Source: Candidatus Muproteobacteria bacterium (GTDB taxonomy: Bacteria > Pseudomonadota > Gammaproteobacteria > Acidiferrobacterales > SPGG2). Taken from it: a stretch of 40,612 nt of DNA. Where the stretch lies: positions 1 to 40,612 of the forward strand of contig QKEI01000059.1 of assembly GCA_003251795.1 (NCBI GenBank). The letters run 5' to 3'. A program made the position numbers and the translations under genes. The notes under the pieces are model-generated. The model had not been told where the DNA came from. It saw only the letters and a program-made list of their open reading frames with translations, and did not search any database. This document shows positions 12,542 through 22,814 of this stretch, in pieces; the stretch's first letter is position 1, and every line of letters starts with the position of its first letter.

Positions 12542-13933
12542 ATGGGCATTACAACATATAACTTGCCAGATGCGCGACGCATCGGTTTTGTCAGTCTCGG
12601 CTGCGCCAAGGCGCTGGTCGACTCCGAGCGTATCCTGACGCAACTGCGCGTCGAAGGGTATGACATTGTGCCGAGCTACGAGGACGCGGACCTGATTGTC
12701 GTCAACACCTGCGGCTTTATCAACGAAGCGGTGGCGGAGTCGCTCGATACCATCGGTGAGGCACTCAAGCGTAACGGCAAGGTGATCGTCACCGGTTGTC
12801 TCGGCGTAAAGGCCGACAAGATCCTGGAAATGCATCCTCAAGTCCTCGCCGTCACCGGACCGGAGCAGTATGAGGACATTCTCGCGGCGGTACATGCTCA
12901 CCTGCCACCGAAACACGATCCTTTTGTCGATCTCGTGCCGCCGCAAGGAATCAAGCTCACGCCCAGACACTATGCGTACCTCAAGATCTCCGAAGGATGC
13001 AACCACCGTTGCAGCTTTTGCATTATTCCAACAATGCGCGGGCGTCTCGCGAGTCGGTCGGCGGGTGAAGTGTTGGCGGAAGCACAGCGATTAGTTAATG
13101 CGGGTGTCAAAGAGTTACTCGTCATTTCCCAGGACACAAGTGCCTATGGCATCGACCTGCCACGTCGCGCCGACACCTGGCGCGGCCGGGCATTGCACTC
13201 GCGTATTCAGCCTTTGGCGCAGGCGCTTGGCGAGCTCGGTGTGTGGGTACGACTACACTACGTCTACCCCTATCCGCACGTCGATAGGCTGATCCCGCTG
13301 ATGGCTGAAGGACGACTGCTACCCTATCTCGATGTGCCGTTCCAACATGCCAGTCCGCGCATATTAAAGCTGATGCGGCGTCCGGCGGCAGCCGCCGATA
13401 ACTTGCAGCGTATCCGGGCTTGGCGCGAGATGTGCCCACAGATAACGGTGCGCAGCACCTTCATCGTTGGCTTTCCCGGCGAGACCGAGGATGACTTTGA
13501 GCAGCTGCTCGAGTTCCTGGAGCAAGCTCGCATCGATCGCGCCGGCTGCTTTCGCTATTCTCCCGTTGAAGGCGCAGCGGCGAACGCCCTGCCTGATCAC
13601 ATTGGCGAAGAAGTCAAAGAAGAGCGCTACACACGCTTCATGCAGACACAGGCACGCATCAGCGCCGAGATCTTGCGCAATAAGATTAACACGCGAGTCA
13701 CGGTACTGGTCGATGAGGCGAGTGACAACGGCGCAATCGCACGCAGCAGTGCCGATGCGCCCGAGATCGACGGCAAGGTATACATCGAAAGCGCGAATGG
13801 GCTAAAGGCTGGCGACTTTGCGGACGTGGTAATAACGCGAACAGGCGAGCACGATCTCTGGGCACGGTTAGCCGGCAATACTGGCGACCTGCCCGATGCC
13901 TGCATCGACAATCGCGCGGGCACGTCGTCGTAG
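12542..13933 (+). CDS. rimO: Ribosomal protein S12 (Asp) methylthiotransferase RimO
   Basis: This 463-residue radical-SAM enzyme methylthiolates the conserved Asp of ribosomal protein S12. The N-terminal MTTase domain has the cluster cysteines in [18 protein letters not shown] and TGCLG. The radical-SAM CxxxCxxC (GCNHRCSFC) is at Cys153, Cys157 and Cys160. Downstream are RGRLASRS, the FQHAS motif typical of RimO (distinguishing it from MiaB), and [11 protein letters not shown]. The C-terminal TRAM domain covers about residues 375-445. Length and order are normal. The ATG at 12542 has no clear ribosome-binding site. Its last 66 bp overlap the 3' end of the opposing TPR gene. Confidence 0.96.
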
Positions 13934-14314
13934 CGGTTCCGCCTCGGTCTTCTTGCCTTGGGCGTGATACAGCCCGGCGAGATTGGTCAGCACGCTGGCC
14001 ACGTGTATGTGCTCTGGCGTCACGCTTTCGTAAATGCGTAAGGCGCGCAGCAGACAGATCTCGGCTTTGCCGTACTTTCCCTGCTTTTTGTATGCCAAGG
14101 CGAGATTGTTGAGTGTTGCCGCAGCTCGCGTGTTTCCCGTACCGAGCGCATCGATGTGCTTGAGCGCCGCCGAGAAATGCTTCTCGGCTTCAACATAGTC
14201 ACGGGCCTGGAACGCCTTCTCGCCAGCCGTCTTGTGGGAACGCCACCGACCCGTCGCCCCAGGCCCGCGAAGCCCTAGGGGACGCAGTAGTGCGCCTAGC
14301 TGAAACCACTGCAT
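13868..14314 (-). CDS. Small TPR protein
   Basis: ATG 14314 is chosen because AAGGAGG lies nine bases upstream (14324-14330). The longer frame from 14392 has no ribosome-binding site and a low-complexity start. The 148-residue protein contains about three tetratricopeptide repeats: [47 protein letters not shown] and [24 protein letters not shown]. These are the tandem units of Kinesin-light-chain-like TPRs that mediate protein-protein contacts. The N-terminus ([10 protein letters not shown]) is too short and weak for a confident signal peptide. The 3' end overlaps rimO by 66 bp on the opposite strand. The binding partner is unknown. Confidence 0.75.
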
Positions 14315-14459
14315 CTTGCGCGGCCTCCTTGCCACGGGCAGGGCGATGCGACTCGCCTCCGCAGTTGTAGCCGTCGTGGCTACCCCTCTCATTAATTAAT
14401 TAGACCCAAGGGGAGCAAAAAGCACGCCATCCGGGCAATATTGCGCTGCAACAGGGACG

Positions 14460-17360
14460 TCAGTTCTCGGCGATGCCGGCCTTACGCAGTCCCTCGAGAT
14501 AGTGCGCCATATCACCGGGGTCCGAAATCAGGTGGTATTTGCGCACAAACGCCAACGAAAAACCGGGCCGTTGCTGTAAGAGCTCCTCACACGCCCGCCG
14601 CGCCTGATCGCTACGCCCGAGATGCCCGAGCGCGGAGATCAGCACCGCGTGGCGCGACCATTGGAAATGCGGTTGCCTCAGGGCTCTGCGTGCCCAGTCG
14701 ATAGCTTGCTCGTAGTCGTGCATGAACAGGTATGCATCCGCCATACGCACCAAGAACGAGCCCATGTAGGGATCGCGCGGGCTCAAACGGATAGCGTGCT
14801 GCAGATACACGATCGCCTCTCTGGCCCTGCCGGTAAAGACAAGCGCGGCACCGATACCGTAATGCGCCCAGGCAAAGCTCGGATTAAGCTCAAGTGCGAT
14901 CTCGAGCTCGGGGATTGCGAGCTCGTGCTCGCGACGCAGGTAGTAGACTCTGCCAAGCGTGCAGTGGGCGGCGGCGTCACTGCTGTCGAGCTCGACCGCA
15001 CGGCGCGCCGCCGCAAGCGCCTTCGCCCGGTTTTCCTCCGGTGAATCGGCAAGCCCATAGACCAAGCCTATGTAGTACGCTTCGGCGGAGGCTGAAAAGG
15101 CTGGGCTCAGGTTGGGGTCAAGCTCGATGGCGCGGCCAAACAGTCGTTGCGCCTCGATCAGGCTTTCTCTCGTGTACTGGTACAGCTGCGCCAGTCCGCG
15201 CTGATAAAAATCCCAGGCATCGAGGTTGTTCGGATGTTTGCTGCGCGCGCGCTGACGCTCGGCACTGGCGAGCTCCGGCTCAATAGCACCGACAATGGTC
15301 TCGGTTAGCTCGTCCTGCAACGCAAAGATATCTCGCAGATCACGGTCGTAACGGTTGGCCCATACAGTAGTGCTGGTGGAACTGTCGAGAAGCTGGGCGG
15401 TGATGCGCACACGCGTCCCCGCTTTACGGACGCTACCCTGGAGCACATAGCGCACGCCGAGATCGTTCGCCACATCACGAATGTCCGGTGATTGATTCTT
15501 ATAAGTAAAGCTCGAGTTGCGGGCAATCACGACCAGCCAGCGGATGCTCGATAACGCCGTGATCAGATCTTCCGTGACCCCATCGGCGAAATAATCCTGC
15601 CCCACATCGTCACTAATGTTCCGAAACGGCAACACCGCCAATGTGGGTTTGCCGCTTTCGGAGCTATGTATCACCGGCTCGCGCAAGAAGCGCCTGACTT
15701 CGTCCAGGAACCGAGGCCAGGCAGGCTCGTGCTCTAGCAGCAGATGATTGCGGCCTTCGAGGGCAATAAATCGCGCTCCCGGAATCGACATGCCCAGCTC
15801 GCGACCCTGCTCAAAGGGCGCAATGGCATCATGACGCGCGTGCAGCACCAGAGTCGGCGCCTGCACCCGCGGCAACAGCGTACGTACGTCGATCTCCCCG
15901 AACGCGCGGCGAATTCTCGCTGCGTTCTCGGGTGAGGCAGTCATGCGCTGCAGATCGTTGAACCACTGTATCTGCTCCGCCGTGCCCTCTGGTATGAACA
16001 GCGAAGTGAACAACTGGCGAAACGCCGGATTCTCCTGTCCCCAACCCTGCCGCATCAAGGTTAGCAAGGCCTCGCCGCGCTCGATCTCGCTTTGTGATCC
16101 GCGCTTGCGCCAGCCGCGTGCATAACCGCCATATAGGATCAAGTGGGTCACCCGTTGCGGGTGACGCAGCGCGTAGGCGATTGATACGGCACAACCCTGC
16201 GAGATTCCCAAAAGCGCGAAACGATCGAGGCCCGCGGCATCGACCACGCTTTCAAGATCACGCACAAAGGCTTCGAAGGAAATGTCCGCCACATCCCAAT
16301 CCGAAAGACCGTTACCTCGCTGATCGTAGCGAACGAGCCGGTGGTCACGTGCAAGCTCATGCAACAGATGGCGCCACACCGGACTGCGCCAATCATGCTC
16401 GAGGTGGCTCAGCCAGTTAGCAGCCTTGACTAAGGGGGAGCCACTACCCGTCGTGGCATAAGCGATACGCACACCATCCGCTGCAGTGCAGAAGTGGATC
16501 TGCTGCTTTAGCGAAGAGTCCTCGTCTGCCCTGATGGGCTTTGATTGTCCGACGGCTAGTGCTGGCGTAGCAGTTGCGCCAGCGCGCTGCGCCGTGATTT
16601 CCCGGTAGAGCGCCTCGGTCTCAGGCGCAGGCGCCACGCCGAGCTCGCGCTGCAGGACGCGTACGCAGCTCTCGTACTGCTTTAACGCGGCCTCGCCGCG
16701 GCCCTGTCCAGCATAGAGGCGCATCAGCGTACGGTGCGCACTCTCTTGCAGTGGATCGAGAGCCAATAACCGTTGAGCCAGCACGATCGCACGCTCGGGT
16801 GCGTCGGCTGCGACCGGGTGCTGTAGTAGTCTCGTTAACGCCTGCACCGCGAGCTCATGCAAGCGCGCACGTTCTGTCATCAGCCACTCTTCAAACGGTT
16901 CTTCCCGCAGGCCAAAGCCCGCCAGGAAGTCGCCCTTGTAAAGCGCCGCGGCTTGCTCCAAGTTTTCAGGATCACCTGAGCCGACCAGCCGGGCAAATTC
17001 GAGCGCATCGATTTGTATGCGACCCGGCTCCAGGCTGATCGACTCGCCCTCCACCTTAAGGATATCGCCACCGACCGCGAGCAGCGCCTTGCGCAGCGCC
17101 GACAACGTCTGGCGCAAGCTGGCGCGTGCCTGTTCCTCAGCACTGCGGTCCCAGAGCAGGGCGGCGAGCTTACCGCGCGCCTGGGGCTCGCCGGCGGCCA
17201 TGGCCAGGTAGACCAAGAGCGCTTTGGCCTTGCGCGTGGGAAGGGTGAGAACCTGTTGCGTGCCGGATCTGACCTCGGCCCCACCGAGCACGGTGATCGT
17301 CAATTTGGTCGTAGAGGCCACCGGGTTTGGTTGATCGCGTCTGAAGCTCGGCGCCGGCAA
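14460..17360 (-). CDS. SARP-type regulator fused to alpha/beta-hydrolase, TolB-like and TPR domains
   Basis: One 966-residue frame joins four modules. Residues 20-110 are an OmpR/SARP-type winged helix (LTITVLGGAEV, then LPTRKAKALLVYLAMA). Residues 115-265 are a bacterial transcriptional activation domain of helical repeats ending at VAPAPETEALYREI. Residues 285-570 are a complete alpha/beta-hydrolase with nucleophile GISQG (Ser387), Asp in ARHDAIAP (about 511) and His in GRNHLLL (about 538). Residues 577-690 are a TolB-like domain (LAVLPFRNISDDVGQDYFADGVTE) as found in COG5616 proteins. TPRs follow to the end. No transmembrane segment is seen, so it should be cytoplasmic. The hydrolase may sense or cleave a ligand that gates DNA binding. 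The TTG start at 17360 lacks a ribosome-binding site, so the exact start is uncertain. Two 11-bp-spaced heptamers lie just upstream. Confidence 0.87.
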   Translation of the reverse strand: MPAPSFRRDQPNPVASTTKLTITVLGGAEVRSGTQQVLTLPTRKAKALLVYLAMAAGEPQARGKLAALLWDRSAEEQARASLRQTLSALRKALLAVGGDILKVEGESISLEPGRIQIDALEFARLVGSGDPENLEQAAALYKGDFLAGFGLREEPFEEWLMTERARLHELAVQALTRLLQHPVAADAPERAIVLAQRLLALDPLQESAHRTLMRLYAGQGRGEAALKQYESCVRVLQRELGVAPAPETEALYREITAQRAGATATPALAVGQSKPIRADEDSSLKQQIHFCTAADGVRIAYATTGSGSPLVKAANWLSHLEHDWRSPVWRHLLHELARDHRLVRYDQRGNGLSDWDVADISFEAFVRDLESVVDAAGLDRFALLGISQGCAVSIAYALRHPQRVTHLILYGGYARGWRKRGSQSEIERGEALLTLMRQGWGQENPAFRQLFTSLFIPEGTAEQIQWFNDLQRMTASPENAARIRRAFGEIDVRTLLPRVQAPTLVLHARHDAIAPFEQGRELGMSIPGARFIALEGRNHLLLEHEPAWPRFLDEVRRFLREPVIHSSESGKPTLAVLPFRNISDDVGQDYFADGVTEDLITALSSIRWLVVIARNSSFTYKNQSPDIRDVANDLGVRYVLQGSVRKAGTRVRITAQLLDSSTSTTVWANRYDRDLRDIFALQDELTETIVGAIEPELASAERQRARSKHPNNLDAWDFYQRGLAQLYQYTRESLIEAQRLFGRAIELDPNLSPAFSASAEAYYIGLVYGLADSPEENRAKALAAARRAVELDSSDAAAHCTLGRVYYLRREHELAIPELEIALELNPSFAWAHYGIGAALVFTGRAREAIVYLQHAIRLSPRDPYMGSFLVRMADAYLFMHDYEQAIDWARRALRQPHFQWSRHAVLISALGHLGRSDQARRACEELLQQRPGFSLAFVRKYHLISDPGDMAHYLEGLRKAGIAEN

Positions 17361-17375
17361 TACACAGGAGGCATA

Positions 17376-17393
17376 TTTTACGAATTTTTTACG
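17376..17393 (+). promoter_or_regulatory. Tandem heptamer TTTTACG-N4-TTTTACG, candidate SARP operator
   Basis: Two identical 7-mers lie exactly 11 bp apart, 16-33 bp upstream of the regulator start and 115 bp upstream of the divergent DUF1127 gene. SARP winged helices are known to bind direct heptamers at 11- or 22-bp spacing. On the minus strand the proximal copy overlaps a TAAAAT that could be the regulator's own -10. The rest of 17361-17507 holds no gene. Confidence 0.5.
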
Positions 17394-17507: not shown

Positions 17508-17885
17508 ATGTTAACGGCAACCATTATGGCTGAAATCGCTGGGCGCCAACGCCCAATCGAGTACTCCCTGAACATCGAGCAATATCAGAAACTGGGGCGA
17601 CATGTGCAGGCGCTGCAGTGGCGTCGATCGCTTAGAGGCGCGGCAGCGGGTTTGCGTCGAGCCTTGTACATCGGCGCACATTATGCCTGGCGTGCGCTGC
17701 ACATCGGCTATAACGCCATCGCTCGGGAGCGAGAGCGCAGTGCCTACCGGCGGGCTCTGCAAGCACTCAATGCGGCGACGTTGAAAGATATCGGCCTGCA
17801 TCGCGGCGAGATCCCTTGGGCGCTGAACGGCTTATCCACGACCGCCAAGCTTTCGAGGCTATCGGCCTGGTCCGTACAGGATTGA
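17508..17885 (+). CDS. DUF1127-domain protein with a long N-terminal extension
   Basis: The 125-residue basic protein ends in a DUF1127/YjiS-like motif (about residues 80-105): RRALQALNAATLKDIGLHRGEI, the usual R..L..L....L.DIGL.R.EI pattern. Most DUF1127 proteins are 45-80 residues; here about 75 extra residues precede the motif, including an Arg/Ala-rich amphipathic stretch (GLRRALYIGAHYAWRALHIGYNAIARERER). In alphaproteobacteria DUF1127 proteins affect RNA and phosphate metabolism, but no function can be assigned here. ATG 17508 has GAGGAAG at good spacing. It is divergent from the SARP-hydrolase fusion and first in line with the hydrolase-BenE genes. Confidence 0.72.
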   Translation: MLTATIMAEIAGRQRPIEYSLNIEQYQKLGRHVQALQWRRSLRGAAAGLRRALYIGAHYAWRALHIGYNAIARERERSAYRRALQALNAATLKDIGLHRGEIPWALNGLSTTAKLSRLSAWSVQD

Positions 17886-21684: not shown

Positions 21685-22814
21685 TCAATCGAAAATGAGC
21701 ATGAAATAGGTAAAGAACAACAACAGGTGCACGGCACCTAGCAGCACGTTAGTCCTGCCGCTGCCAAAAGTGACGATGCTCACCATCAAGGTTGCGATCA
21801 ACATTACCGCCTCTTCAGGCTCCAGACCTAGGACAACAGGCTCGCCCGTGACCAGCCCGATTACAAGCACCGCCGGAATTGTCAAACTGATCGTCGCCAG
21901 AGCCGAGCCGAGGAAGATATTTACCGCACGTTGCAGCTGGTTAGCCAGCGCCGCATGTATCGCGCCCAGCCCCTCAGGGGACAGGACGAGCACAGCAACC
22001 ATAAAACCGCCGAGCGCAGGCGGCGCCCCTAATACAGTGATGCCGTGGTCAATGGGTAGGGCCAGCTTCTTGGAAAGCAACACCAACGGCACAGCAGCAA
22101 TATCCCGTGATAGGGCACTGAGCGCGGGAAAAGCTTGCCATCATGGTGCGCTCTCGGCAGCGCGTTTTTCGAAGATGAATCGACTGGGGGCTCGGTAAAA
22201 TGGCTGCGGTGACGCACAGTCTGAATCGACAGGAACACGGCGTAGATACCGACAGTCATCAGCACCAACGACAGTGCTTGCGCCTTCGAAAACGTCGGAC
22301 CGGCCGAGGCCTGGGTATAGTTAGGCAGTATCAACCCAACAATGGCCAAAGGCACAATTACCGCGAGAAAGGCATTCGCTCCCTGCAGGTTGTACTGCTG
22401 TTCCCGGTAACGCAGCGCCCCCACCAGCAAACTCACACCGATCATCCCATTTAGCACGATCATCAGCACTGAAAACATGGTGTCACGCGCCAGCGCGGGC
22501 TTATCCACACCGGTGATCATCACCGCCGCAATCATCATTATCTCGATGCTGATAACCGACAGAGTAAGGATCAGGGTGCCGTAGGGTTCGCCTAGCTGAA
22601 TCGCCAGACAGTCGGCGTGTCGCACCACGGCGAAGGCTGACCAGAGAATCGCTAGAAAGAGCCAAACGAACATCAGGAGCAACCAGGCCACGTTGGCGAA
22701 ACCCGTTAACCATTGGGCGCCAAATAACGCAAACAGTACCGCCGTTATGATACTGAACCACAGCGGCAGCTCCGCTCGAAGAAGAGACATGATTGCGGGT
22801 GTTCTAGCAGGCAT
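21685..22814 (-). pseudogene. chaA: Frameshifted calcium/cation:proton antiporter (ChaA family)
   Basis: Two frames together encode one Ca2+:H+ antiporter. The 5' part (22814 down to about 22095) reads well through the N-terminal helices, AVVRHADCLAIQLGEPYGTLILTLSVISIEI (the acidic alpha-repeat motif) and YNLQGANAFLAVIVPLAIVG. The 3' part (from about 22092 to 21685) continues in another frame with VPLVLLSKKLALPIDHGI, LGAPPALGGF, VLSPEGLGAIHAALANQLQRAVNI, the second repeat, and TFGSGRTNVLLGAVHLLL. Compared with my recollection of intact homologues, 10 bases appear missing at a CTG-rich spot. The frame 1 product would end at 22029 after a foreign tail. Unless this is a sequencing error, the transporter is broken. 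ATG 22790 is an alternative start. Confidence 0.85.

Follow-up and report, generated by a model that had tools for sequence, protein, structure and literature searches.

A SARP-type regulator that carries an alpha/beta-hydrolase of a regulator-fused subfamily

The window, by which we mean the whole 40,612-nucleotide stretch of DNA that was analysed, carries on its reverse strand a 966-codon open reading frame at positions 14460-17360 (stop codon 14460-14462) that is unbroken by stops and lies away from the edge of the contig; its TTG start is uncertain by ~20 residues. The sequence-only reading held that a single protein here joins a SARP unit, a hydrolase, a TolB-like domain and TPRs, and all four parts were confirmed as follows: The SARP unit occupies residues 19-262 (16575-17306). 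Within it Pfam finds the BTAD core at residues 132-255 (16596-16967; E 3e-25, 89.6 bits against a cut-off of 22.1) and scores the winged helix under its cut-off (20.4 versus 26.2 bits), but a local SARP profile recovers winged helix and BTAD together at 337 bits, and the secondary structure of the predicted model is consistent with the winged helix. The protein thus has the N-terminal winged helix plus BTAD of a SARP regulator. The alpha/beta-hydrolase domain, residues 284-561 (15678-16511), is identified by Pfam (an Abhydrolase_1 match from residue 327, E 3e-18), by a subfamily profile and by its predicted structure (pLDDT 93, pTM 0.92). The TolB-like domain, residues 571-732 (15165-15650), receives no Pfam call in this protein and is recognized through its homologues among cyclase-TolB-TPR and SARP-TolB-TPR proteins; it is up to 63% identical to its counterpart in proteins of the former type, one of which gives a weak TolB_N match in Pfam. 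The TPR region, residues 736-963 (14472-15155), is seen by Pfam (repeats at about residues 796-895), profile and model. The full-length model, at pTM 0.42, is usable for single domains, and domain contacts are not readable from it and were discarded.

The hydrolase is not degenerate. The earlier reading had named an intact Ser387-Asp-His triad, and S387 is correct (in GISQG, codon 16200-16202); its partners are D511 (15828-15830) and H539 (15744-15746). Among solved structures, the hydrolase model comes nearest to esterases, haloperoxidase-type enzymes and an enol-lactonase; the top 50 structural matches also include the plant proteins KAI2, DAD2 and D14.

Could the fusion be an artefact of assembly or binning? 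The genome is a draft in 306 contigs with 4.9% contamination, and the exact order SARP-hydrolase-TolB-TPR was found in no protein but this one among the genomes searched. On the other hand, the four parts share one continuous frame within a 40 kb contig, and 32 other proteins have the SARP-hydrolase order, some of which continue into an ATPase module at the C-terminus, so we consider an artefact extremely improbable. RimO is 66% identical to its Wenzhouxiangella match, 63% to that of Paraburkholderia and ~30-35% to alphaproteobacterial matches, which places the genome in the Gammaproteobacteria in the broad sense.

A small TPR protein is encoded 67 bp after the regulator on the same strand (13868-14392) and is possibly co-transcribed with it. 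On the divergent side lie, in order, a DUF1127 open reading frame (17508-17885), a free hydrolase gene (from 18013) and, after 222 bp, a BenE-type transporter gene (from 19129). The latter two had been described as the divergent neighbours of the regulator and as completing with it a sense-import-cleave circuit. The DUF1127 frame is in fact the nearest divergent gene. The free hydrolase is not a close paralogue: its identity to the members of a first, 18-row tree does not exceed 21%. Nothing closer than 28% to BenE was found in 56 related genomes, and in the relatives whose flanks were read no window neighbour recurs apart from one remote hydrolase. The circuit is not supported, as the neighbours are not conserved. 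The relatives examined share no theme in their flanking genes, which were set aside as a clue to the ligand. Two close SARP-hydrolase relatives, L027 and L029, have a type III polyketide synthase gene (L027:6709-7785 and L029:6745-7797) divergent from the regulator and an MFS transporter gene after it; this pair is a possible ligand clue for those two loci, and the synthase was rejected as a general partner, as elsewhere in other genomes synthase genes lie apart. Elsewhere in the window, a ChaA-like exchanger of 261 aa (22029-22814, reverse strand) matches the 366-position ChaA profile over its first part only and may be truncated.

Upstream of the regulator, at 17376-17393 on the reverse strand, lies the direct repeat CGTAAAA-AATT-CGTAAAA. 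Its 11-bp period is that known for SARP sites (PMC10972967). It is the sole such site in the genome at up to one mismatch, and 7 of 500 shuffled versions of the intergenic sequence score as well. Upstream of other SARP-hydrolase genes, the start codons of which were set mechanically, no excess of operator-like repeats was found, and an operator was not seen as a family-wide feature. We regard the repeat as a weak candidate for an autoregulatory site, not more.

To what does this hydrolase belong? Subfamily members were collected from sampled genomes by searches with an alignment of the hydrolase domain alone, with start codons set mechanically. Of the genomes from the same class, 9 of 369 had matches (E <= 1e-40), as did 23 of 398 from the phylum and 42 of 397 from another order (E <= 1e-80). 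The collection comprises 95 distinct members from Pseudomonadota, Actinomycetota and Chloroflexota. Every one of the 95 is joined to a regulatory output: a SARP unit in 33 (32 plus L031, whose same-frame SARP unit precedes an in-frame stop), an OmpR-type winged helix in 29, a LuxR HTH in 20 and a class III cyclase in 13, with the outputs Pfam-checked in ~25 of them. No free hydrolase is among the 95, collected with a profile that was built from fused members and that a distant unfused branch could escape; by contrast, the window's own genome has 25 Abhydrolase_1 matches, and most of these sit in frames of ~260-375 aa, the size of a hydrolase. In the core subfamily the output is N-terminal of the hydrolase in the SARP, OmpR and cyclase forms, and it is C-terminal in nearly all LuxR forms. 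The subfamily is marked by a conserved W-x-x-H-L-E-x-D-W-x-S-P-x-W stretch after strand 3. Loss of the usual HG oxyanion motif was weighed, but we make no such claim: only the conserved W/H/D/W-rich stretch is visible after strand 3, and PcaD-type enzymes are not known to carry the motif either. The nucleophile is Ser in 90 members and Cys in 5 (the LuxR-fused L065, L105, L106, L114 and L169), the acid is Asp in 91 and Glu in 4, and His is present in 94 of the 94 that reach that position. By close relationship, intact triad and output domain the window protein belongs to this regulator-fused subfamily. No description of the transcription-factor-fused subfamily was found in the literature searched, which takes in a minority of subscription papers.

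These counts bear on whether the domain is just an ordinary enzyme with a pathway metabolite as its substrate, so that the fusion would tie catabolism to control of that pathway and the hydrolase itself would gate nothing. The intact triad and the resemblance to PcaD-type enol-lactonases and esterases are what such an enzyme should have, but pathway neighbours are not conserved, and the same hydrolase is placed on four unrelated outputs, cyclases included, with no free member found; we judge this explanation unlikely. The proposal that the hydrolase has a sensory role, already made in the sequence-only reading, is by the same counts strongly suggested.

The fusion itself had been thought exceptional, and this is true only of the four-part combination, which is what is new here; its SARP-hydrolase and SARP-TolB-TPR pairs are both already widespread. 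SARP-hydrolase proteins are common in Alphaproteobacteria; they were found in Rhodospirillaceae, Acetobacteraceae and Vineibacter, on plasmids of the rhizobia Rhizobium and Sinorhizobium, and in many sampled genomes. Three such proteins, of ~1550 aa, continue into an AAA_16 ATPase and a long C-terminal part, in which two of the three give weak TPR matches. In another (L075:91-2391, forward strand) a receiver domain accompanies the SARP unit and hydrolase, and a phosphorelay input may there be combined with the hydrolase. On contigs C181 and C290 of the window's genome (L003 and L004) BTAD matches lie at identical coordinates, perhaps through assembly redundancy; on C181 a separate hydrolase gene directly follows the BTAD gene.

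SARP-TolB-TPR proteins that lack the hydrolase are found in the window's own genome (L046) and on Rhizobium, Skermanella and Microvirga plasmids. They are consistent with a true input in the TolB-like/TPR tail, which would sense a protein partner as in HilA-like or cyclase-TolB-TPR proteins and leave the hydrolase as an accessory or a passenger of recombination; the resemblance of residues 568-927 to HilA/EilA points the same way. However, the tail is present in only one of the 95 subfamily members, the window protein, and the triad is kept throughout, and we find this account quite improbable. The same genome also holds at least nine TolB-TPR paralogues (contigs C137, C206 with three, C3, C280, C300, C61 and C221; L048-L053, L055), an expanded signalling family within one genome; the two that were Pfam-checked, L048 and L049, carry a class III cyclase domain.

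The hydrolase of the window protein is closest (73% identity) to that of a 505-aa cyclase-hydrolase protein of the same genome, which is its sister with 96/87 support in a 62-row tree and also its nearest neighbour in a 95-row quick tree. The TolB-TPR part has its nearest matches in proteins of the cyclase-TolB-TPR type (62-63% in the TolB segment), and the SARP unit in large SARP-ATPase proteins of Burkholderiales (47-52%), so that the three parts have three separate closest relatives. The trees require at least 12 changes of output (62 rows, 7 labels) and at least 11 (95-row quick tree, 4 labels); outputs have been exchanged repeatedly around the hydrolase. A SAM methyltransferase gene (L045:3234-4127, forward strand) overlaps the end of this cyclase-hydrolase paralogue and may be translated together with it. 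On contig C198 of the same genome, one protein (L071:1105-2757, forward strand) has a more distant hydrolase flanked by two outputs, an OmpR-type winged helix and a class III cyclase.

We read the hydrolase as an input domain because outputs, of four unrelated kinds, are all that it is found attached to. The triad has been kept, which suggests that the active serine has a part to play, in binding or in chemistry. The window protein is, in our opinion, probably a one-component transcription regulator in which the hydrolase is the sensor and ligand binding or slow turnover gates the SARP unit. Such a regulator would probably be cytoplasmic. A small molecule, probably an ester, a lactone or an acyl compound, would be the ligand of its hydrolase domain and occupy the pocket that S387, D511 and H539 line. 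Through binding, through a covalent acyl-enzyme state or through slow turnover, this ligand would alter the conformation or pairing of the hydrolase, and the altered hydrolase would allow the SARP unit to attach to direct repeats and to recruit RNA polymerase. The TolB-like/TPR tail may serve in dimerisation or contact with a partner. The distribution of outputs supports a general, swappable sensory module and suggests that this type of hydrolase is a sensor so far undescribed as such. Plants are well known to have enzyme-fold receptors that may use up the signal chemically, but few examples come from bacteria. If the present reading is correct, ligands could be screened once and read out in several ways, since within one genome a DNA-binding unit and a cyclase carry closely related hydrolases, and a chemical signal common to many Alphaproteobacteria and their relatives could be revealed.

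How does this protein compare with known systems? With the SARP regulators ActII-ORF4, AfsR and PimR (PMC10972967) it shares the N-terminal winged helix plus BTAD, the C-terminal TPRs of the large forms and, as a candidate, the 11-bp direct repeat upstream; where the large forms have a central NB-ARC/ATPase, it has the triad-bearing hydrolase and the TolB-like domain. The SARP-TolB-TPR regulators (L046 and those on plasmids) match its N- and C-terminal parts and lack the hydrolase. The SARP-hydrolase proteins (L027, L028, L029 and those of rhizobial plasmids) have the same order of SARP unit and hydrolase, with hydrolases in L027-L029 that are 61-67% identical to that of the window protein, but are without the TolB-TPR tail; L028 is a short member of 554 aa, at least three carry the AAA_16 ATPase instead, and one has the mid-protein receiver domain. 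HilA/EilA are homologous to tail residues 568-927 and have neither BTAD nor hydrolase; against their NCBIfam equivalog the window protein scores 62.9 bits versus 589, through the tail only, and so is not one of them. Hydrolase-cyclase fusions are known (PMC4886424), and LipJ/Rv1900c likewise fuses a hydrolase to a signalling output, in its case an adenylate cyclase; the window protein has no cyclase and scores 81.9 bits against the NCBIfam LipJ cut-off of 800, which places it outside that family.

In Bacillus, the RsbQ hydrolase and the RsbP PAS domain form a sensing module that is coupled to diverse outputs (PMC3183031). There the hydrolase is a protein of its own and works through the PAS domain, whereas the window protein has hydrolase and output in one chain, with no PAS domain, and is thus not such a module. 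The plant receptors D14 and KAI2 use the alpha/beta-hydrolase fold and its triad as a receptor, and their likeness to the window hydrolase is at the level of the fold only (TM about 0.76, 19-24% identity); they are free proteins that signal through partners, unlike the fused hydrolase here. We tentatively suggest, as a conjecture that we hold with less than even confidence, that the subfamily is a bacterial class of self-contained hydrolase receptors in which a single triad-bearing module, by binding its ligand or by slow covalent turnover, would directly switch four unrelated outputs in cis, an independent counterpart of plant D14/KAI2.
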